In this document: one piece after another, positions 23,016-63,724 of the stretch
How the letters are laid out: each line of letters begins with the position of its first letter
Position numbering within the stretch: the first letter of the stretch is position 1
Assembly: GCF_001747095.1 (NCBI RefSeq)
Contig: NZ_MDGP01000001.1
Span: forward strand, 1,037,001 to 1,101,000
Direction: 5' to 3'
DNA: 64,000 nucleotides
Origin: Roseivirga sp. 4D4
Lineage (GTDB): Bacteria; Bacteroidota; Bacteroidia; Cytophagales; Cyclobacteriaceae
Notes under the pieces: model-generated
Databases searched by the model: none
What the model saw: only the letters and a program-made list of their open reading frames with translations
Told to the model about the DNA's origin: nothing
Program-made: the position numbers and the translations under genes

Positions 23016-23546
23016 TTACCATTGCCAAATCCCGAAAGCTACCTGAGGCGGTGCGGGATGTCCTGATTGCTTTAAGGCCAGAATGATTTGCCCTCTGGTA
23101 TGGGATTCATGTGATATAAGGTAACCCATAAATCGTACCGGAGACATGGGCCAATTCTTCTCGTTTCTTTTAAGTGCATCCGAAAGCACGCTTCTTAAAA
23201 GTTGATTGGACTTGGTCAGTTGATCACTTACATAGCCGGACTTGAGGCTTTCGACATTGTCGATTTCGGTATCCAAGCCCTCTGCTTGAGCCTCAGAAGC
23301 CAGCTCAGAAAGCCACATCATTCTTACATTATGCAAGTGTGCAAACTGATCGGCAATATTGCGGCCTCCGGAAGTTGTAGTATCCCTTAAATAGTCATCT
23401 TTAACTGCCGTCATCAGCAGGCTATTCATCTCAGCGTGCTTGTCCCAGGTAGATAGAATGTCGTTGATTAATCCGGTTTGCCCATAAGAAAGTTGAGGTA
23501 TGGACAATAGGAAAAAAAGTGCCAGAGTACTTAGTAACCTTTTCAT
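23016..23546 (-). CDS. Exported DinB-fold protein (second paralogue)
   Basis: 176 residues with a signal peptide (about 1-22, ending LSIPQLSYGQ). DinB-fold four-helix bundle with likely metal His residues in QFAHLHNVRMMWL and in the last helix LISHESHTRGQIILALKQSG, the latter close to the HxxHRGQ-like motif of the family. It resembles the protein at 20302-20859 in both domain and export signal. It converges on the LytTR gene. Confidence 0.83.
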   Translation of the reverse strand: MKRLLSTLALFFLLSIPQLSYGQTGLINDILSTWDKHAEMNSLLMTAVKDDYLRDTTTSGGRNIADQFAHLHNVRMMWLSELASEAQAEGLDTEIDNVESLKSGYVSDQLTKSNQLLRSVLSDALKRNEKNWPMSPVRFMGYLISHESHTRGQIILALKQSGHPAPPQVAFGIWQW

Positions 23547-23611: not shown

Positions 23612-23767
23612 TTATCGCTTAGGACAGCTCTTGCACATCTTCTTACTCTTCTTCTTGTACTTCTTGCAGCACTTCTTTAAAGAACAGTCGCATTGACCGC
23701 CAATGAATGTAGAAAATGGACTTGCGTCCTTCACCTGCTCCTCTTCAAACTCCTCAAATTTCAGCAT
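23612..23767 (-). CDS. 51-residue Cys/Lys-rich protein
   Basis: This short frame reads MLKFEEFEEEQVKDASPF at the start, then six Cys in a dense Lys-rich half: C26-x-C28, C33-C34, C45-x2-C48, ending CPKR. The acidic N-terminus and basic Cys-rich C-terminus are unlike random sequence, and the frame starts at an ATG 3 bp from a perfect palindrome (23771-23791). The CxC, CC and CxxC clusters suggest metal binding, in the manner of a metallothionein or zinc ribbon, but no known family is assigned. The mature gene is bounded by the dipeptidase terminator upstream and the DinB-fold gene downstream. Confidence 0.7.
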   Translation of the reverse strand: MLKFEEFEEEQVKDASPFSTFIGGQCDCSLKKCCKKYKKKSKKMCKSCPKR

Positions 23768-23770
23768 TCT

Positions 23771-23791
23771 TATTTAGACTTAATCTAAATA
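23771..23791. promoter_or_regulatory. Palindromic operator of the Cys-rich gene
   Basis: TATTTAGA-N5-TCTAAATA, a perfect 8-bp inverted repeat ending 3 bp before the ATG at 23767. TTTATTTG (7/8 match to the -7 element) lies just upstream on the minus strand, so the palindrome covers the likely transcription start. Its core TTAGA-N5-TCTAA recurs in front of the mutagenesis cassette. Confidence 0.6.
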
Positions 23792-23833
23792 CAAATAAAG
23801 AGCAGGATTTCCATTTCGCCAAACAAAAAGACA

Positions 23834-23860
23834 ATAAAAAAGGGAGTCAATCGACTCCCT
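23834..23860 (-). terminator. Terminator of the dipeptidase gene
   Basis: AGGGAGTC (23841-23848), loop of 4, GACTCCCT (23853-23860); on the minus strand the stem is followed by six T. It lies 21 bp after the dipeptidase stop. Confidence 0.88.
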
Positions 23861-23881
23861 AAACTGTGAATATTAAATGTC

Positions 23882-25195
23882 TTATCCGGCAGCCTGAATT
23901 TGCTTGGCAATTGATTGCACTTCGTCTAATACACGTAACAGGTTACCGCTCCAAATCATACCTATTTCTTCTTCGGAATAGCCTCTTCTTACCAATTCCA
24001 AAGTTACATTGAAAGTTTCTGAAGCATCATCCCAGCCTTCAACGCCCCCGCCTCCATCGAAATCGGAACTAATGCCAACATGCTTTATTCCAATCTTCTT
24101 GACCAAGTAATCAATGTGATCTACGAAATCTGAAACATTTACTGGTGGAGCTACGCTATTGATCTCAGCATCGATACGTTCCTTGTGCTTTTCTTGAAAG
24201 GCATTGTATTCATCAAAATAGGCAGTTCGTTCATTTCGACTCATTGCCCTAAACAAACTGCCAGGTTTAATCTCAAAGCCTTCTTCCTCTGCAATCTGCG
24301 CAATCACTTCACTTGATCTTGTACGATTAGCTCTATGCTTTTCTGAGTTCAAGTAACTTTTAAATGCCACTGTCTGAATCACTCCGCCATTCTCTTTCAA
24401 CATCATTAACTGTTCATCATCTAGATTACGGCTCACATCATTCATGGCCCTAGCCGCTGAATGAGATGCAATCACAGGTGCTTTGGAAAGCCTCATCATT
24501 TCCATGTTAGCCACTTTTGAGGGATGCGATAAGTCGATCATAATTCCCCATTTGTTCATCTCAGCAATCACCTCTCGGCCTAGATCACTTAGGCCATTAT
24601 GCAGCCAAACACTGTCTCTTTCTCCCGTATTAGAGTCACTTAATTGACTATGTCCATTATGTGCTAGAGACATGTAGCGTGCACCACGATCATAGAATTC
24701 CTTTACTCTATTGATGTCTTTACCGATCGGATAACCGTTCTCGATTCCGATCATCGCAACTTTCTTTCCTGTAGCATTAATTCTTCTGACATCGTCAGAA
24801 GAATAGGCTATTTCAATTCTATCTGGCGCTATTTCTTCAGCTAATCGGTGAATGGCTTTAAACTTATCATCCGCATTGGCATAGGCACGATCAAAACCTT
24901 CATCTGTTAATTCTCGCTGTCCGGTATAAACTATAAACCAGGCTACGTCTAGACCGCCCTCTTCCATATTAGGAAGATTTACTTGTGTAGGGAGTTTCTT
25001 GGTATAGTTATTATCCTCAGTGAAATTGGTGGTATTAATATCATCATGCGTATCCAGTGTGATAACACGCTCATGAATGCCTTTGGCATACTCCAGCAAT
25101 TCTGCTTCCGTCATTTCATCAACTGATTTCTCTTTAGGTTCACAAGCTGTAAACACTAAAGCCAAGGCGGCTAAAAAATAGGTTAGTCTTCTCAT
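23882..25195 (-). CDS. Membrane dipeptidase, peptidase family M19, lipoprotein
   Basis: 437 residues. Lipobox LVFTAC with Cys18. M19 fold with zinc ligands in order: LDTHDDI (His/Asp), GIENGYPIG (bridging Glu), IDLSHPS (His), VIASHSAARAM (His), and GISSDFDGGGGVEGW (Asp). The family hydrolyses dipeptides, some of them D-amino-acid or beta-lactam-like substrates. It is predicted to be anchored to a membrane facing the periplasm. It lies 54 bp downstream of the DnaE2-like gene on the same strand but has its own promoter-like element and a palindrome just before the ATG. Confidence 0.92.
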   Translation of the reverse strand: MRRLTYFLAALALVFTACEPKEKSVDEMTEAELLEYAKGIHERVITLDTHDDINTTNFTEDNNYTKKLPTQVNLPNMEEGGLDVAWFIVYTGQRELTDEGFDRAYANADDKFKAIHRLAEEIAPDRIEIAYSSDDVRRINATGKKVAMIGIENGYPIGKDINRVKEFYDRGARYMSLAHNGHSQLSDSNTGERDSVWLHNGLSDLGREVIAEMNKWGIMIDLSHPSKVANMEMMRLSKAPVIASHSAARAMNDVSRNLDDEQLMMLKENGGVIQTVAFKSYLNSEKHRANRTRSSEVIAQIAEEEGFEIKPGSLFRAMSRNERTAYFDEYNAFQEKHKERIDAEINSVAPPVNVSDFVDHIDYLVKKIGIKHVGISSDFDGGGGVEGWDDASETFNVTLELVRRGYSEEEIGMIWSGNLLRVLDEVQSIAKQIQAAG

Positions 25196-25196
25196 T

Positions 25197-25221
25197 TTAG
25201 GTTGGTTTTACCCAAACCTAA
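25197..25221 (-). promoter_or_regulatory. Promoter -7 element inside a TTAGGTT/AACCTAA palindrome
   Basis: TTAGGTT (25197-25203) and AACCTAA (25215-25221) are perfect 7-bp arms with an 11-bp spacer. TAGGTTTG (exact TAnnTTTG, minus strand, 25220-25213) lies inside the palindrome, only 17 bases from the ATG. A protein bound here would block the promoter. Confidence 0.5.
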
Positions 25222-25249
25222 GTATGTTTTAAGAAATGCACAGGCAGAT

Positions 25250-28200
25250 TTATGTGGGTGGAAGGAAATTAGCTATACCCATTGTTGCATGTCTGGGTTC
25301 TTCGGCATAGCGAGGGTCATGTACGTAAGGGAGTTTTCGCATAGCGATCATTTCTAAACTCAGGAAGTCAAATTCTTCTACAATTTTACCTGTTAGCTCA
25401 TAGATACCTTTGCCTCTAAATGGGTATCGTGCTGCTACAGATGGGAAATGTGTACTGTCAATAAAGTAACCCTCCCGATCTAACCAAGTGCCGAATTGCA
25501 TTCTTTTACCATTAGAGGTATTGGTATTCTTAATATGAATCAAATAGCCAATCATTCGAACGGTCTTATTGATATGCTGGTCCATCTCGCGTACCAATAC
25601 ATTCCTTGGAGGTTGCTCTTTTAAGAGGTCAAAAGGGTTGCATAGTGGAAAGCCTAATAGATCTTGCTGATCGAAAGCATCTTCCAAAATATCATAACTG
25701 AGTTCGGGAAGCTCAAAGCGTTTGACTTCAGGATCGAATAGCATTCTCACTGGATTGGTTTTCTTGTGGCTTCCCAACTGGAAATGAGCTTCCCATAGCA
25801 AGGCTTTCTTTGTTTGTCCTGTAAATCTAAAAGCACCTATTTTGATCAACAGACTTAATTGATCCAAAGAAATATTCACGCGCTTTAAGAAATTATCAAA
25901 GCCCATAAACACACCATTTCCATAGCGTTCTCTTAATATTTCCTCAGCAGTGGTCTTTTCTAATTCACTCACAAAAGCTAAGCCCATAAAGATGGTTTTA
26001 CCATATATGGTACAGAGGTATTCACTTTGGTTTACACAAGGCGCCTGAATATCACCACCATGCATATAGGCTTCATGCGCATAGAGTTCTACACGATAAA
26101 AACCACCACCATTGTTCATAGTAGCCACCATGTACTCTAAAGGGTAATAAGCCTTGAGAAATAGACTCTGATAACTTTCCACTGCGTAAGATGCGGAGTG
26201 GCCTTTGGCAAAAGCATAGCCTGCAAAACTCTCTATCTGTCGCCAAACCTCTGCTGCCAATTGATAGCTATGTCCTTTATTGAGACAGTTCTCAAAGTAC
26301 TTCGCTTTTACTTTTTGAAATTCTTCTCTCGATCGGTATTTGCCCGACATACCTCTTCGCAAGACATCTGCTTCTCCAAGCGTAAGTCCGGCAAAGTAGT
26401 GAGCTACCTTAATCACGTCTTCTTGGTAAACCATGACCCCATAGGTCTCCGGCATAATATCTCGGAGTATAGGATGTGCTTCTTCTCTCCTATGCGGTTC
26501 TCTAAAGCGAAGGATGTATTGTCGCATCATGCCTGACTTCGCTACACCAGGACGTATGACTGAACTGGCTGCTACTAAGCCCAGGTATTCATCTACCCGA
26601 AGCTTTTTAAGTAACATGCGCATAGCAGGGGACTCTACATAAAAGCAACCTATGGCCTTCCCTTCTCTGAGCATGGCTTTCACCTTAGGGTCTTCTTTAA
26701 ACCTTGAGATATCATGAATATCTATGAGCTCATGATCTGGATGATTTCTCCGAACTACTTCAAGGCTGTCTTTAATTTTTCCAAGGCCCCTCTGACTCAG
26801 GATATCAAACTTGTAAAGACCGATGTCTTCGGCAATGACCATATCAAAATGAGTAGTTGAAAAGCCTTTTGGAGGCAAGTCAGTTGCTGTGTAATAATGT
26901 AAAGGCTTCTCAGAAATAAGAATTCCTCCGGCATGAATACTTAAGTGACTAGGAAATCCTTCTATATATTTACCATAGCGAAGGACAAGTTTGTGAACAT
27001 CATCTAACTCACTAAGTTTAGCCTTTTGAATGTGGTCAATCTCATGTGGCGGAATTCCTAGAACCTTGCCCAATTCACGCACTACTGCCCTAAATTGAAA
27101 TGTGCTATAAGTCGCTAATAAGGCTACATGAGGAAAACGGTTAAAGATATATTGCGTGATATCCTCCCTGTCTTTCCAAGAAAAGTCAACATCAAAATCC
27201 GGAGGGTTTTGCCGATAGAGATTGATAAACCTTTCAAAATAAAGATCCAGTTCGATCGGGTCTACATCCGTAATTCTTAAAAGATAAGCGACTACAGAGT
27301 TAGCTCCACTCCCACGCCCAACATAGAAATAGCCTTTGCTTCGGGCATACTTGCAGATATCCCAATTGATGAGAAAGTAAGACATAAAGCCCTGCTGCTT
27401 GATCACGTCAAGCTCTGTTTTGATACGTTTTAGAATCTTATCATCAGGGTTCTTATAACGATAAGGTAAACCTTCATGACATAGTCGCTCCACCAACTCA
27501 TAATCTTCCTGCTCACTATTGGTATAGCATTTCTGATTCTTATTGAGTCCTTCTCCTTCAAAGTCAAAGTGAATAGAACAATCAGCTAGCAGTTGCTCTG
27601 TGTTCTCAATCATATAACGATGGTCCTTATATAGATCAAGCAATTCATCTAGTGGGTAGATGAAATCTTCTGGGCTCCCTTCCTCTGATTTTGGAAGCAT
27701 ACTGAGCAAGGTATTATTATCTACCGCTCTGAGTAGACGGTGTGCATTGAAGTCTCTTTTCAATACCTCCCGCTTACCTAGATCATTTACCTTACTCCGG
27801 AAAGTAAGGGTCTGAAGCACCACCATTTTAGCCTTATCCATTTGATGCGGTGGATAGACCAGTCGAGGTAAATCAGTAGGCTTTACTCCTACAAACTCTA
27901 ATATTTTTAGTTTGAAGCCAGTGTATTTACTAAAGGGATACACCACATAAGCATGCTTAAACTCTGGCGCCCTGGCAGGGATAGGTTCTCCGGAATGCAA
28001 GTAAACAGACAGGTAATCATTAAGCTCTTTAAAACCTTCATTATTCTTGGCAATCCCCACAAAAAGCTGATTTGCTCCATTACGAAAATCAATCCCTAAT
28101 ACTGGTTTAACATCGTATTTAGCAGATAAGCGAACGAAATTCAGAGAAGCTGCAGTGCTATTAATATCCGTGAGTGCAAAACGATTCACCCCTGCCCTTT

Positions 28201-28276
28201 GTACTTGCAGAAGCAATTCCTTAGTATTGATGGTGCCGTATTTGAAGCTATAATATGTGTGAGAATTTAAATACAT
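25250..28276 (-). CDS. Error-prone DNA polymerase, DnaE2-like alpha subunit
   Basis: 1008 residues. Degenerate PHP domain (HTYYSFKYGTI, ALTDINST where active PHP domains have TDH), polymerase palm with catalytic PDFDVDF (Asp360, Asp362) and KFDIL (Asp491), fingers, HhH region ending in KKALLW, and a C-terminal OB fold (VRMIGYLIHIKNT, MQFGTWLD). At 1008 residues it is shorter than replicative DnaE (about 1150) and lacks the tau-binding tail, as do DnaE2-type polymerases. These carry out translesion synthesis with a Y-family partner. Here the partner is the DinB gene upstream on the same strand. Confidence 0.9.
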   Translation of the reverse strand: MYLNSHTYYSFKYGTINTKELLLQVQRAGVNRFALTDINSTAASLNFVRLSAKYDVKPVLGIDFRNGANQLFVGIAKNNEGFKELNDYLSVYLHSGEPIPARAPEFKHAYVVYPFSKYTGFKLKILEFVGVKPTDLPRLVYPPHQMDKAKMVVLQTLTFRSKVNDLGKREVLKRDFNAHRLLRAVDNNTLLSMLPKSEEGSPEDFIYPLDELLDLYKDHRYMIENTEQLLADCSIHFDFEGEGLNKNQKCYTNSEQEDYELVERLCHEGLPYRYKNPDDKILKRIKTELDVIKQQGFMSYFLINWDICKYARSKGYFYVGRGSGANSVVAYLLRITDVDPIELDLYFERFINLYRQNPPDFDVDFSWKDREDITQYIFNRFPHVALLATYSTFQFRAVVRELGKVLGIPPHEIDHIQKAKLSELDDVHKLVLRYGKYIEGFPSHLSIHAGGILISEKPLHYYTATDLPPKGFSTTHFDMVIAEDIGLYKFDILSQRGLGKIKDSLEVVRRNHPDHELIDIHDISRFKEDPKVKAMLREGKAIGCFYVESPAMRMLLKKLRVDEYLGLVAASSVIRPGVAKSGMMRQYILRFREPHRREEAHPILRDIMPETYGVMVYQEDVIKVAHYFAGLTLGEADVLRRGMSGKYRSREEFQKVKAKYFENCLNKGHSYQLAAEVWRQIESFAGYAFAKGHSASYAVESYQSLFLKAYYPLEYMVATMNNGGGFYRVELYAHEAYMHGGDIQAPCVNQSEYLCTIYGKTIFMGLAFVSELEKTTAEEILRERYGNGVFMGFDNFLKRVNISLDQLSLLIKIGAFRFTGQTKKALLWEAHFQLGSHKKTNPVRMLFDPEVKRFELPELSYDILEDAFDQQDLLGFPLCNPFDLLKEQPPRNVLVREMDQHINKTVRMIGYLIHIKNTNTSNGKRMQFGTWLDREGYFIDSTHFPSVAARYPFRGKGIYELTGKIVEEFDFLSLEMIAMRKLPYVHDPRYAEEPRHATMGIANFLPPT

Positions 28277-28277
28277 T

Positions 28278-28307
28278 AATATTTATGTATATGTATTAAT
28301 AAATATT
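28278..28307. promoter_or_regulatory. AT-rich inverted repeat before the DnaE2-like gene
   Basis: AATATTTAT (28278-28286) and ATAAATATT (28299-28307), perfect 9-bp arms, 12-bp spacer, 2 bp upstream of the ATG. All A/T, so chance symmetry is likelier than usual. It could be a promoter or operator giving the polymerase its own control after the broken gene. Confidence 0.3.
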
Positions 28308-28373
28308 TACATATGTTGTTTTATTCATATTTTATTATTGAGCTTCAAAATACTAGTTTCAAGCTTCAAGTGT

Positions 28374-28727
28374 TTAGGTCTTTAGTTGCCTTATAAAGCC
28401 TGAGATCATTTTTTGTTCTTCAATAAGGAACTTCATAAGAAGTTCATATCCATCACCCTTTATCCATCCAAGTTTTTCGGTTATTATCAACTAAGTTTCC
28501 AACTCAAAAGCGCTACCAAGTGCTATTTCTAGAAAACGCTTATATTCCTTTTGGCTGTTCCTAGCGCCTCCTTCCGCGATATTTGATGGAATAGAAACTG
28601 CTGCTCTTGTCATTTGACTTGTCAACCCAAACTTCTCGGCATTAGGAAACGTATTTGTGACTTGGTAAACCTGTTCTACTAACTGGATCCCACTTTGCCA
28701 AATCTTCAACTTCTTGAAGTCTCTCAT
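28374..28727 (-). pseudogene. Four-helix-bundle protein (S23/Avd-like), inactivated by an amber codon
   Basis: The first 78 codons encode a normal four-helix-bundle protein (FKKLKIWQSGIQLVEQVYQVT, FGLTSQMTRAAVSIPSNIAEGG, YKRFLEIALGSAFELET, read in parts). A TAG at 28491-28493 then stops it. Past the TAG the same frame continues for 38 codons (LIITEKLGWIKGDGYELLM ... ISGFIRQLKT) to TAA at 28374-28376. In family members Gln normally follows ELET, so one CAG to TAG change explains the break. The full length of 117 residues plus the amber codon equals the usual family length. It sits between DinB and the DnaE2-like polymerase. Confidence 0.85.
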
Positions 28728-28777
28728 CCTTTATCTTCTATGTCTATAATCGATCACTCTAATTATTCGCACTTGCA

Positions 28778-28840
28778 GCTTATAGCTTGTCACTCGGAGC
28801 TCATAGCTCGTAACTAATTTCTCATAGCTCGCGGCTCACA
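28778..28840. repeat. Three degenerate 21-bp tandem repeats
   Basis: Units at 28778-28798, 28799-28819 and 28820-28840, sharing the core (C)TCATAGCTCG or TTATAGCTTG; a partial fourth unit (ACTCGTAACC) follows. Located between the pseudogene start and the DinB stop. Similar AGCTCATAGCTCGTA-type tracts are, as I recall, common between Bacteroidota genes. No protein is encoded. Confidence 0.6.
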
Positions 28841-28853
28841 ACTCGTAACCCCA

Positions 28854-30071
28854 TCACTGTCTTCGATTAGCAAGCAACGGTGGCGGCTCTCCTGTAAATG
28901 GATTAAACCTGCTGATGGTCTTAGCACCTATGCCATAGGCACGCATTACTTTACGGTCGCCAAACTTGTCTCTGATCTTATCCATAGCATGATAGAGGCT
29001 GATGATTTCTTCTGCATCTTCAAATAAGTTGATTTGATATCCACCTTCAACTAAATGACTAAATCTCACCCCTATTAGCCTGACTAACAACCTCTTATTA
29101 TAAAGCTTATTGAAGAGTTCCATCACTTTGGCAATCAATACGTGATCGGCTGAGGTATATGGAATTCGGGACTGAAGTGTATAGGTATTGAAATCCGAAT
29201 ACCTAACTTTCACTGTGACACAGGCTGTCAATTTAAGACCTCTCCTTAGTTGAAAAGCCAGGTTTTCGGCCATGGCCAAAAGAATTCCTTTGAGTTTAAG
29301 TACATCAATAGTGTCTTTGTCAAAGGTTCTTTCTGTTGAAATTGACTTCCTTTCATTGTATGGAACTACCTGTGCATTATCGATACCATTAGCTTTCTTC
29401 CAAATGCTTACACCATTCTTACCCAGTACTTTCTCCATCAGTTCTACAGGCATTTCCTGGATGGTCTTAATCTTCTTTACCCCAAGGCTAAAGAGCGTCT
29501 GTTGAGTCTTCTCTCCCACCATTGGAATTTTGCTCACGGATAGTGGTGCCAGAAAAGGCTTTTCAGTGCCATACTCTATCTTCAGCAGGTTATCGGGCTT
29601 AGCAACACCTGTAGCTACTTTTGAAACTGTTTTATTCTTTGACAGGCCGAAGGATATGGGCAGTCCAGTATCTTTTTTAATGCGCTGGCGTAACTCTGTC
29701 GCCATTTGATAACTGTTATGAAACTTGTCCAAACCTGTTAGATCAGCATAGAATTCATCAATTGAGGTCTTTTCATAAAGCGGTACTGTCTCTTTAATGA
29801 TGGATGTCACATCTTCAGAGTATTTGGAGTAAGTGCCTGAGTTTCCACGAATCTGAATCGCTTCGGGACAAAGCTCCTTAGCCTTCTTCATAGGCATGGC
29901 TGAGTGTATTCCGAAGGCCCTGGCTTCATAGCTACAGGCTGCTACTACACCTCTATCGGTTACTCCACCAATAAGCACAGGTTTTCCATTTAAACGACTA
30001 TCCAATAACCGCTCTACAGACACAAAAAATGTATCCAAATCCATGTGCATTATGGTTTTATCTGTAGACAT
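28854..30071 (-). CDS. dinB: DNA polymerase IV-like Y-family polymerase
   Basis: 405 residues. Catalytic residues Asp11 (MDLDTFFVSVE), Asp105 and Glu106 (SIDEFYADLTG); steric-gate region FFVSVE; HhH region (KIPMVGEKTQQTLFSLGV); little-finger domain (about 240-345). A clamp-binding motif QINLF lies at 346-350 and not at the extreme C-terminus, followed by a tail of about 55 residues. It inserts nucleotides opposite damaged bases. Its ATG abuts the stop of the LigT-like gene with no gap, so the two are cotranslated. Confidence 0.92.
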   Translation of the reverse strand: MSTDKTIMHMDLDTFFVSVERLLDSRLNGKPVLIGGVTDRGVVAACSYEARAFGIHSAMPMKKAKELCPEAIQIRGNSGTYSKYSEDVTSIIKETVPLYEKTSIDEFYADLTGLDKFHNSYQMATELRQRIKKDTGLPISFGLSKNKTVSKVATGVAKPDNLLKIEYGTEKPFLAPLSVSKIPMVGEKTQQTLFSLGVKKIKTIQEMPVELMEKVLGKNGVSIWKKANGIDNAQVVPYNERKSISTERTFDKDTIDVLKLKGILLAMAENLAFQLRRGLKLTACVTVKVRYSDFNTYTLQSRIPYTSADHVLIAKVMELFNKLYNKRLLVRLIGVRFSHLVEGGYQINLFEDAEEIISLYHAMDKIRDKFGDRKVMRAYGIGAKTISRFNPFTGEPPPLLANRRQ

Positions 30072-30641
30072 TTAGTTTATATGTGATTGTTTAAAGGGAA
30101 AATCTGCTATGCAGTCCCATTTAGCCATAAGGCTATTTTTTCCTAAAACGGTAAGGGACTTCGCTTTAAAACTGTTACGATATGAACGCCTATAGAATTC
30201 GTTTTGAGATGCTATAAACTGACGACTAGATAGTGTCCTACCAATAGTTAAATGAGGTATGTAGGTGCTCTTAAAGAAGCTAAGGGGAACCCAATTCAAG
30301 TATAGTTCGCACCATAGTGAGCTATATAAGCTTACTAATGAGGTCTTATCTTCTATGTCAATGAAAAGTGTATTGTTGCTATCAAAGAAATCAAAACCTG
30401 ATAAAGAGACATCAAATGCCGGTATTGTACTTACAGTGTCAGCAATGCATTCAAGTATTCGATCATTTCTATCTAAGCTCTGAAAGAAGTTGGTAATGGT
30501 TATGTGAGGAAGAGAATAAAGACTCTTGTACCTACCATACCGCTCTGCAAATTCTGACTTAATCCATCTTACTTCTTTACTGACATGGTCAGAAGGGTTT
30601 ATAACTATTAAATAATAGTATAGACTGTTTGACTCCAACAT
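30072..30641 (-). CDS. LigT-like 2H phosphoesterase
   Basis: 189 residues with two HxT motifs, the hallmark of the 2H phosphoesterase (2'-5' RNA ligase/cyclic phosphodiesterase) superfamily: SLPHITIT (His46-Thr48) and YIPHLTIG (His130-Thr132), 84 residues apart as expected. Members open or form 2'-5' or cyclic phosphodiester bonds in RNA and nucleotides. The stop codon directly precedes the dinB ATG. It takes the place at the head of the polymerase cassette where LexA-like or ImuA-like genes are often found. Substrate unknown. Confidence 0.85.
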   Translation of the reverse strand: MLESNSLYYYLIVINPSDHVSKEVRWIKSEFAERYGRYKSLYSLPHITITNFFQSLDRNDRILECIADTVSTIPAFDVSLSGFDFFDSNNTLFIDIEDKTSLVSLYSSLWCELYLNWVPLSFFKSTYIPHLTIGRTLSSRQFIASQNEFYRRSYRNSFKAKSLTVLGKNSLMAKWDCIADFPFKQSHIN

Positions 30642-30668
30642 GCTTGATTTATTGATTGGAGCATAAAC

Positions 30669-30712
30669 TTAGCTAAAATTATTAGTTACTAAAAATATTA
30701 GATAAAATCTAA
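30669..30712. promoter_or_regulatory. Cluster of three TTAG...CTAA palindromes
   Basis: TTAGCTAA (30669-30676), TTAGTTACTAA (30682-30692) and TTAGATAAAATCTAA (30698-30712) are each perfect palindromes, centred about 14 and 18 bp apart, 28-71 bp upstream of the LigT-like ATG. Several 7/8 matches to TAnnTTTG lie among them on the minus strand. The array looks like a multi-site operator controlling the LigT-DinB transcript. Confidence 0.6.
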
Positions 30713-61648: not shown

Positions 61649-63724
61649 TCACCTAAAGTCCACCATCATAATCTCATCTTCGCTTTGTTCAATTTGCACA
61701 TAGAAGATCTTAGTGCCTTCGGGATTTGCAAATAGACTTGGGCTAGCACCTTGAATTCGTTTTGCTGGAGTGAAAATGGGTACAGGTGGAACATTGATAT
61801 CATAAGACTGAAGAAAGAACTGCAGGCCAAAGCTTCTATCGACATAAACAATACCCTCTACTGTTGGTATCCAGTTACCCCAGTCCACATTGTTCATGGT
61901 CGGAATGAATAGTTCTTCTTTGCCTTCATTATTTATCCTCCATATGCCGATCGTGTCTATCCTAGTATAATAAAGCAGGCCATCTTTAGGGCTTTCATGC
62001 ATGAAATATCCGCCCTCCTTGGTTACTGCCTGAGGTTCCGATTCAGTCGCCTCAATAGATTGTTTCCAAATCTGCCAACTGCCTTCATGATTGGAAGCGA
62101 AGTAAAATAACTCCTCGTCTCTTGCAAAACGCGCATTGACCTGATCGCCATCTAAGTCAACCAGTGCAGTCATCATTTTCGAAGCAAGATCAATAGAGTA
62201 TATCGCGTGGTCTCCATCAATTCTGGCATCAAAAATCAATTGTCGGTCATCAGCTGACCAGGAAGGCATATTCAGAAAGCTTCCTTCCAATGAAGTCATT
62301 TTAGTCAGGTTGTTGTCCTCGAAATTCTTGACCCAGATTTCAAAGTGACCGGATCGATCGGAAATAAAGGCCGCCTTCTTCCCATCATGAGATAGTGACG
62401 GGTGAATTTCAGCCCTTGTAGAACTGGCCACCTCCATTGGCTGTCCAAATTGATTATTGGTTTTTTCTGTAGACCAAATTCTTGTTTGATCCCTTAGGCT
62501 TTTATATACCATTCTATCCTCCTGCCTAGCAAACTTTGGTTCTGTGGGTACTCGATCGTTGATATGAAGCCTGGAAATAAGACCTCCGTCAATAGAAGTT
62601 CTCCAAAGTGCCCAGGTTCCTGCCCGATTGGAGGAAAATACAATCTGTTTGCCCTCATCGAAAATGTCCAAACCCAATATTTGGGCATCATCAAATGTGA
62701 GTCGTGTTAAATCGCCACTGGCCAATTCCATTTTATAGATATCCCTCTGTTGACCGCTTAGATTTCTTCTAAAGATCAAGTGACTGCCATCGGGCGAAAA
62801 AACTGGGTCTCGATCTCCGATTCCTCCAGCAGCTATGGCTTCCGAAGTCTCGCCTGATTCGATATCCAAGAAATAGATCTTTCGATTATCGCCTTCTGAC
62901 TTTATATCGGTAAAGGCAATGGTCTTCCCGTCAGGTGACCAGACAAAGTCATCAGGTGATCGATAACAGTTCCCTATCTTCACTTTCTCTCCACCAAAGC
63001 TAGGCTCTTTAAAGATCTCGCAACTTCGATTTTCGGCACTCACATAAGCCATGTAATTACCATCTGGTGACCATATACCGTAACCTTGTGGACTTGGCAG
63101 CTTTGTAAATTTCATTTCACTGAGATCGTCCAACATTTTAATATGGACATCTGAATTAGGTGAACCCGGTTCGGCATAACTGAAGGATATTTTTTGACCG
63201 TCAGGAGAAATGGCGAGTGCTCTCTCAGGTCCTAGAAGTGTGGAAACAGGAATTGGATCATAAAAGCCGGTATACTGATCTTTTGAGAGCGAACTCACCA
63301 GGCCAACAGCACTCACCACCAAAGCTGATAGTACAAGCCAGAGCCAACCATTTGTTCGTGATGACTCATTAAAAATGTTAGTACCGGATTGGGAAGCAAA
63401 GTCACCAAAACGCACAGGCGCAATCAAACGATAGCCTGACTTGCTGATCGTCTCGATGTACTTTGGGCTCAAGGGATCATCATCAAGTGCCTTCCTGAGT
63501 TTTGACATTCCTCTTGTGAGGGCATTGTCAGTCACATAGACATCAGACCAAACTTCATCATGAAGTTTCTTCTTACTGACGACCTCACCCTGATGCGACA
63601 CCAAGCAAGTCAGAATCTCCATTGTCTTGAATTCCAACTTGCGATTTTCTGACCCCTTAGAGATCATCAGCAACTCGGGTTCAACCAACCAATCACCTAT
63701 TTTGAACGATTCCTTAATTCCCAT
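61649..63724 (-). CDS. CadC/ToxR-like winged-helix regulator with periplasmic PD40 propeller
   Basis: 691 residues from the ATG at 63724 (an ATG at 63772 adds 16 residues outside the domain). Winged-helix OmpR-type DNA-binding domain (about 5-105: LEFKTMEILTCLVSHQGEVVSKKKLHDEVW, VTDNALTRGMSKLRKALDDDP, IETISKSGYRLIAPV, read in parts), one membrane helix (about 124-144), and a periplasmic six- or seven-bladed TolB/WD40-like PD40 domain (SPDGQKISFSYAEPG, WSPDGNYMAYVSAE, SWSADDRQLIFDA). A one-component system sensing the periplasm. Adjacent to the S9 peptidase. Confidence 0.9.
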   Translation of the reverse strand: MGIKESFKIGDWLVEPELLMISKGSENRKLEFKTMEILTCLVSHQGEVVSKKKLHDEVWSDVYVTDNALTRGMSKLRKALDDDPLSPKYIETISKSGYRLIAPVRFGDFASQSGTNIFNESSRTNGWLWLVLSALVVSAVGLVSSLSKDQYTGFYDPIPVSTLLGPERALAISPDGQKISFSYAEPGSPNSDVHIKMLDDLSEMKFTKLPSPQGYGIWSPDGNYMAYVSAENRSCEIFKEPSFGGEKVKIGNCYRSPDDFVWSPDGKTIAFTDIKSEGDNRKIYFLDIESGETSEAIAAGGIGDRDPVFSPDGSHLIFRRNLSGQQRDIYKMELASGDLTRLTFDDAQILGLDIFDEGKQIVFSSNRAGTWALWRTSIDGGLISRLHINDRVPTEPKFARQEDRMVYKSLRDQTRIWSTEKTNNQFGQPMEVASSTRAEIHPSLSHDGKKAAFISDRSGHFEIWVKNFEDNNLTKMTSLEGSFLNMPSWSADDRQLIFDARIDGDHAIYSIDLASKMMTALVDLDGDQVNARFARDEELFYFASNHEGSWQIWKQSIEATESEPQAVTKEGGYFMHESPKDGLLYYTRIDTIGIWRINNEGKEELFIPTMNNVDWGNWIPTVEGIVYVDRSFGLQFFLQSYDINVPPVPIFTPAKRIQGASPSLFANPEGTKIFYVQIEQSEDEIMMVDFR

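Follow-up and report, generated by a model that had tools for sequence, protein, structure and literature searches.

The window examined here, 64,000 nucleotides (nt) of Roseivirga sp. 4D4 (contig NZ_MDGP01000001.1, positions 1,037,001 to 1,101,000), carries the exact palindrome TTAGA-N5-TCTAA at 23774-23788, in front of a gene for a small Cys-rich protein, and again at 30698-30712, in front of a cassette that opens with ligT and dinB, which raises the question of whether a single regulator reads both places. A first-pass annotation had proposed that it does, joining these copies to a wider family of TTAG...CTAA palindromes and assigning them to one small damage- or metal-response set. The comparisons described below lead to a different answer: the two places are very probably unrelated repressor sites lying 7 kb apart, tandem SOS boxes at one and a Fur box at the other, whose shared TTAGA...TCTAA letters are coincidental. 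Both operators are already known kinds of bacterial switch. Short palindromes with a common core, when read without comparison, can fuse two regulons into one.

Probable tandem SOS boxes at the ligT-dinB promoter

Two features of the window stand above chance, namely the tandem CTAA-N5-TTAG pair at 30673-30701, which was reproduced in none of 100 shuffles, and the cross-species conservation at 30673-30701 and at 23771-23791. Across the upstream regions of the best 30 dinB loci, the constant unit is CTAA-N5-TTAG, often present twice. In the window, the predicted LexA-type SOS box 1, CTAAAATTATTAG on the plus strand, occupies 30673-30685 on the ligT-proximal side, 31 nt from the ligT start, and is identified by the genome scan, by its place in the conserved block of the alignment and by the published Bacteroidetes LexA motif; the distal box 2, CTAAAAATATTAG on the plus strand, occupies 30689-30701 and is identified by the genome scan and the alignment. 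What had been listed as a palindrome of its own, TTAGTTACTAA (30682-30692), corresponds to the sequence between two such copies; TTAGCTAA (30669-30676) had been listed along with it. When the window is aligned with three close relatives (G013, G017 and G001), the two boxes form a conserved block, the outer TTAGA arm is not shared, and none of the three has the complete TTAGA-N5-TCTAA. The first-pass annotation chose a shifted frame: what is conserved here is a pair of CTAA-N5-TTAG units, and the TTAGA-N5-TCTAA at 30698-30712 is the outer half of putative LexA box 2 followed by sequence that is not conserved. A further candidate, TTAGT-N1-3-ACTAA, was rejected as the operator of this cassette, as it occurs 16 times in the genome against 54 in the control and corresponds to the stretch that separates one SOS box from the other, the length of which varies among relatives. 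In the same three relatives (loci L009, L010 and L011), the SOS boxes are retained along with a start resembling ATGTTGGA or ATGTTGAA, but just 80-100 nt or so separate that start from dinB, which looks like the result of a ligT deletion.

The conservation of the unit was examined by placing CTAA and TTAG at every spacer from 0 to 12 upstream of four groups of genes. DinB-type polymerase matches were found in 52 of the 59 genomes searched, that of the window included, and the best 30 loci were fetched; matches to an S24-peptidase repressor, described below, were found in 34 of 39 genomes, and one locus from each of 30 genomes was retrieved and tested. The LigT set comprised the first 14 of 30 fetched loci, one per genome and all of the same genus, and a gene of the DUF763 family was present in 7 of 23 genomes, all seven upstream regions being tested. 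CTAA-N5-TTAG precedes the repressor gene at 20 of the 30 loci, including every one of the 19 from the same genus, and it also precedes LigT at 12 of 14 loci and DUF763 at 6 of 7. In none of these three sets does any other spacer give more than 1, and a control palindrome (AATC/GATT) gives at most 1 at the repressor upstreams. The two LigT loci lacking the box (G018 and G006) adjoin dinB on the same strand and lie behind it, and the DUF763 locus lacking an exact box (G001) has near-matches. For dinB, 21 of 30 upstream regions contain a match within 250 nt; with three set aside for the reason given below, 18 carry the box directly before dinB. At seven further loci (G000, which is the window's own genome, G002, G004, G007, G009, G010 and G011), LigT stands in front of dinB, and the box precedes LigT in all seven, so that 25 of 30 dinB cassettes, and 19 of 19 within the genus, are preceded by CTAA-N5-TTAG.

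Several observations weigh against this assignment. A single CTAA-N5-TTAG is not above shuffles in the window (3 against a mean of 1.5), and the three matches that were dropped (L012, L013 and L018) fall in the coding DNA of a LigT preceding dinB, at the codons of a conserved T-N-x-F-R stretch. The exact box is lacking at 5 of 30 dinB loci (L027, L029, L030, L033 and L036), all outside the genus, where it is also found at only 1 of 11 S24 loci, some of which may not be orthologues. Within the dinB group, as many as 2 of 30 loci match at another spacer. In the opposite register, TTAG-n-CTAA, the count rises to 6 of 30 at spacer 4, a spacer equal to the interval that separates tandem boxes. The Bacteroidota -7 promoter element is TAnnTTTG. 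A strict copy of this element lies behind the box in just 3 of the 19 repressor promoters, so an overlap of SOS box and promoter is doubtful.

Against these results, the proposal that one regulator reads TTAGA-N5-TCTAA at both loci, together with the related palindromes, appears highly unlikely. It draws on the presence of two exact copies no more than 7 kb apart, both just before start codons, and on the three exact copies in the window, compared with a shuffle mean of 0.10 and with none of 100 shuffles reaching three. That third copy, at 62758-62772, had been missed by the first-pass annotation; it lies within a coding open reading frame (ORF) of 707 amino acids (aa) and is judged a chance occurrence. 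Across the genome (4.58 Mb), the motif is not enriched, because 7 copies are present against 11 in a reversed control, a count that covers the whole genome and not intergenic DNA alone, and the gene contexts of the seven sites are mixed. Such a chance-level frequency is the outcome that the first-pass annotation had itself named as refuting its proposal. It is found upstream of LigT at 1 of 14 loci, the window's own, and at none of the 30 S24 repressor or 7 DUF763 loci. On the grounds of these genome counts and this lack of conservation, TTAGA-N5-TCTAA is rejected as one operator, each locus having its own conserved motif, in a different register and with a different gene set. The wider palindrome family does not rise above chance either, because the window contains 20 members of the class TTAG-N0-15-CTAA, whereas 30 first-order Markov resamples average 24.8. 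What survives of the earlier proposal is that the named strings are present where reported, that the Cys-rich gene's copy is conserved in relatives as part of a Fur-type box, which the copy at the LigT cassette is not, and that damage (a LexA-like repressor) suits ligT-dinB and metal (Fur) suits the Cys-rich gene; the single set, its common motif and its membership do not.

The opposite possibility, that every one of the palindromes arose by chance in a genome rich in A and T, is barely credible. The counts for TTAG-N0-15-CTAA agree with it, as does the genome total of the stricter SOS pattern considered in the next section, but spacer 5 recurs in 19 of 19 same-genus repressor promoters where other spacers give 0 or 1, the tandem pair is absent from all 100 shuffles, and the Fur consensus stands at 14 places against 1. 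Conservation argues against chance at 23771-23791 and 30673-30701, whereas chance probably accounts for 62758-62772 and for 25197-25221. At the latter, TTAGGTT-N11-AACCTAA precedes a gene for an M19 dipeptidase and had been counted as a member of the same set. With up to 2 mismatches, it is expected 0.31 times and is seen at least once in 25 of 100 shuffles. Among the 18 same-genus orthologues examined (of 30 fetched loci), both exact arms are kept in the window's own upstream region only, and for this reason the palindrome was rejected as an operator and none is claimed for the dipeptidase gene. Its left arm, TAGGTTTG, fits the -7 element TAnnTTTG.

The S24 repressor and its predicted regulon

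The candidate reader of the SOS boxes was located in the same genome, where a homologue search matched G000:C1:1891225-1891956, within an ORF at G000:C1:1891186-1891968 on the minus strand. The encoded LexA-like protein contains a helix-turn-helix domain (HTH_3, PF01381, 5.8e-12) and a Peptidase_S24 domain (PF00717, 8.1e-09); its NCBIfam matches all fall below cut-off, and matches in the PDB are weak and confined to the N-terminus. An SOS box starts 34 nt before the start codon of this gene. In 22 aligned repressors, the Ala109-Gly110 cleavage bond and the residues of the Ser-Lys dyad, Ser147 and Lys186, are invariant. In some relatives (L029, L033 and L036), a gene of the HTH-S24 type adjoins dinB.

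The genome holds 10 places of the stricter pattern CTAAWWWWWTTAG, of which two are the ligT-dinB boxes, one precedes the S24 repressor, two lie in a divergent SRAP promoter, and one each precedes DUF763 and a second LigT. The remaining three lie inside coding ORFs and were set aside, namely one in dnaE (window 27898-27910), one in a 191-aa ORF and one in the second LigT, where, by eye, the site again falls at T-N-x-F-R codons. The total of 10 counts against the assignment, as the reversed control gives 14; because the raw total is not above control, the case for an SOS regulon rests on placement and conservation. No recA was seen by eye beside the ten strict sites, and no search aimed at recA or other core SOS genes was made. 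At G000:C1:1454326-1454375 (L090), two SOS boxes were observed in the promoter shared by divergent genes for the SRAP protein and for a 117-aa protein without a Pfam match.

The cassette predicted to be controlled by the tandem boxes is read from the minus strand. Its first gene encodes a LigT-like 2H phosphoesterase (30072-30641; PF13563, 9.6e-17) with two HxT motifs, HIT and HLT, and is followed by a Y-family polymerase of the DinB/Pol IV type (28854-30071; PF00817, 8.1e-45; PF11799, 3.1e-25), for which the DNA polymerase IV model PRK02406 is above cut-off. Between dinB and dnaE lies a gene for a four-helix protein of the 23S rRNA IVP family (28491-28727; PF05635, 6.8e-31), and the last gene encodes a DnaE-type polymerase alpha subunit (25250-28276; PF07733, 4.7e-63; superfamily TIGR00594 above cut-off), which matches the 'error-prone DNA polymerase' model at 9e-126, yet below the cut-off of that model. 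By analogy with published work on related species, the S24 LexA-like repressor would bind 30673-30701 and keep the ligT-dinB-(four-helix)-dnaE operon off; upon DNA damage, RecA filaments would prompt the repressor to cleave itself at the Ala-Gly bond, and the operon would be transcribed for error-prone repair. Short proteins that look four-helix-like by eye also occur in or beside the dinB-dnaE cassette of several relatives (e.g., L009, L014 and L015), at changing positions; the family was checked in Pfam for the window's copy and for one in L089 only.

The predicted regulon is small and testable, and it places two genes without a known damage role, those of the 2H phosphoesterase and of DUF763, under the repressor; these would form its least familiar part. 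In 10 of 19 same-genus genomes, a LigT gene is found no more than 1.2 kb from the SOS polymerase. Both H-x-S/T motifs are kept in 4 of 11 aligned LigTs (the window's copy and three others), the other seven having lost at least one; the second LigT of this genome has, by eye, lost both. It is possible, and proposed here only tentatively, that both DUF763 and the LigT-type 2H phosphoesterases have a genuine function in the Roseivirga damage response. The boxes of the LigT genes themselves, their closeness to the polymerase and the coexistence of intact and degenerate forms suggest an enzyme paired with a sensor or regulator, the substrates being RNA or cyclic-nucleotide ends that arise when DNA is damaged. 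Among the literature matches listed, no title linked LigT or a 2H phosphoesterase to the SOS response in Bacteroidota.

A probable Fur-type site before the Cys-rich gene

The second site is a separate conserved operator, probably of the Fur type, distinct from the SOS box. The putative box TATTTAGACTTAATCTAAATA, with 8-bp arms, spans 23771-23791 and differs from the consensus ATTTAGAATNATTCTAAAT by 2 mismatches. It stands in front of a gene on the minus strand (23612-23767) for a 51-aa Cys-rich protein, the start codon of which is 3 nt from the palindrome and 4 nt from the 19-bp ATTTAGAATNATTCTAAAT-type box at 23772-23790. The protein has no match in Pfam or NCBIfam, and its homologues were found in 11 of the 29 genomes searched, its own included. 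Both arms, TTTAGA and TCTAAA, precede the gene in six of these (G000, G013, G017, G002, G010 and G018), and in the alignment of these six upstream regions, which were chosen for having both arms, TTTGTATTTAGATT...TCTAAA is invariant. The gene that follows the Cys-rich gene (window 23016-23546) encodes a protein of the Pfam 'DinB family' (PF05163), which is unrelated to the DinB polymerase despite its name.

Some similar sites elsewhere stand beside genes of iron metabolism. In the window's own genome, ATTTAGAATNATTCTAAAT with up to 3 mismatches is found at 14 places against 1 in the control, and for six of the 14 the nearby genes encode a TonB receptor, SufB, FeoAB, a multihaem cytochrome (at a distance of 180 nt), an ankyrin protein and the 51-aa protein. 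Of 29 genomes, 15 contain the pattern TATTTAGANTNNNTCTAAAT, with 25 strand-hits (20 places) in all, compared with 2 control hits. Inspection covered 15 of these 25 loci, the others being Cys-rich sites or strand duplicates; of those inspected, L165 yielded no site by script, L177 showed no convincing gene, L188 repeats L187, and L180 is given without a family search. Among the neighbours, Pfam identified HemA and a TonB plug domain three times each, PepSY_TM twice, and imelysin, a periplasmic binding protein and SufB. One further neighbour, a succinate dehydrogenase subunit, narrowly missed the Pfam cut-off.

The Fur assignment also meets contrary observations. Five of the 11 Cys-rich homologues lack the full site, with one arm in G001, G007, G009 and G046 and none in G004. 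Four of the 14 ATTTAGAATNATTCTAAAT places lie within coding ORFs, one of them fur itself, and at four further places no iron gene is evident. The idea that fur is preceded by a box of its own was considered and rejected, no full TTAGA-N5-TCTAA being present before the Fur-family genes at the 30 loci inspected.

That the site is read by another member of the Fur family (PerR- or Irr-like) or by a metal regulator of the DtxR type is less easily dismissed, although still unlikely. The genome contains four Fur-family matches; HemA adjoins the motif in three relatives, and a peroxidase gene starts 23 nt after a related site, both being genes of the kinds that PerR and Irr control. This peroxidase site (G000:C1:1636059-1636073, L005), before a gene that is KatG-like by eye, is an exact TTAGA-N5-TCTAA and perhaps a weak Fur- or PerR-type site. 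Against such a regulator, the motif is carried by FeoAB, SufB and TonB receptors, the Fur box of Riemerella is nearly identical, and the best Fur-family match of the genome obtains its highest scores from models of Fur, albeit under their curated cut-offs. With Fur as the preferred reader, the iron-loaded protein would, as work on related species suggests, repress the 51-aa Cys-rich protein from 23771-23791, and the protein would be made when iron is short.

Relation to characterised systems

The system closest to the tandem boxes is the non-canonical LexA of Bacteroidetes, the site of which is reported to be CTAA-N5-TTAG, with an electrophoretic mobility shift assay (EMSA) of the repressor from P. 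actiniarum (Sanchez-Osuna et al. 2021, PMC8565304). The targets reported there include umuDC, recA, dinB, imuA-imuB-dnaE2 and SRAP, and both in vitro binding and damage induction are reported for species other than the present one. The likeness extends to the motif and its spacer, to a site in front of the gene for the HTH_3-S24 repressor itself, to the tandem arrangement of boxes and to targets that include SRAP and an error-prone polymerase; the cleavage residues named in that work are present here. Searched by term, the main text of that paper yields neither Roseivirga nor LigT, nor RNA ligase, phosphoesterase or DUF763, though genes given only in its supplements may include them; the regulon predicted here would extend a recent, experimentally established SOS system to a genus that such a search does not find in that main text. 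The imuA-imuB-dnaE2 mutasome is marked by an ImuA-like first gene and a catalytically dead ImuB; in a comparison confined to the cassette itself, the window's version begins with LigT, and Pol IV models match its polymerase.

For the Cys-rich gene, the nearest counterpart is the Fur system of Riemerella anatipestifer, whose box is the 19-bp palindrome ATTTAGAATTATTCTAAAT, supported by EMSA (PMC5609570). The sequence at 23772-23790 agrees with it at 17 of 19 positions, and iron genes elsewhere in the genome carry the box, the difference being that the target in the window is the 51-aa Cys-rich protein without a Pfam or NCBIfam match.

A parallel in role only is offered by Deinococcus, in which a radiation-induced cinA-ligT-recA operon belongs to the IrrE/DdrO regulon (PMC5552922). 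The repressor, motif and partner genes are all different, but in both cases a LigT-type protein is encoded in a damage-induced operon, predicted as such in the present genome, and the occurrence of ligT in this unrelated radiation regulon points to a need that the two lineages may share.

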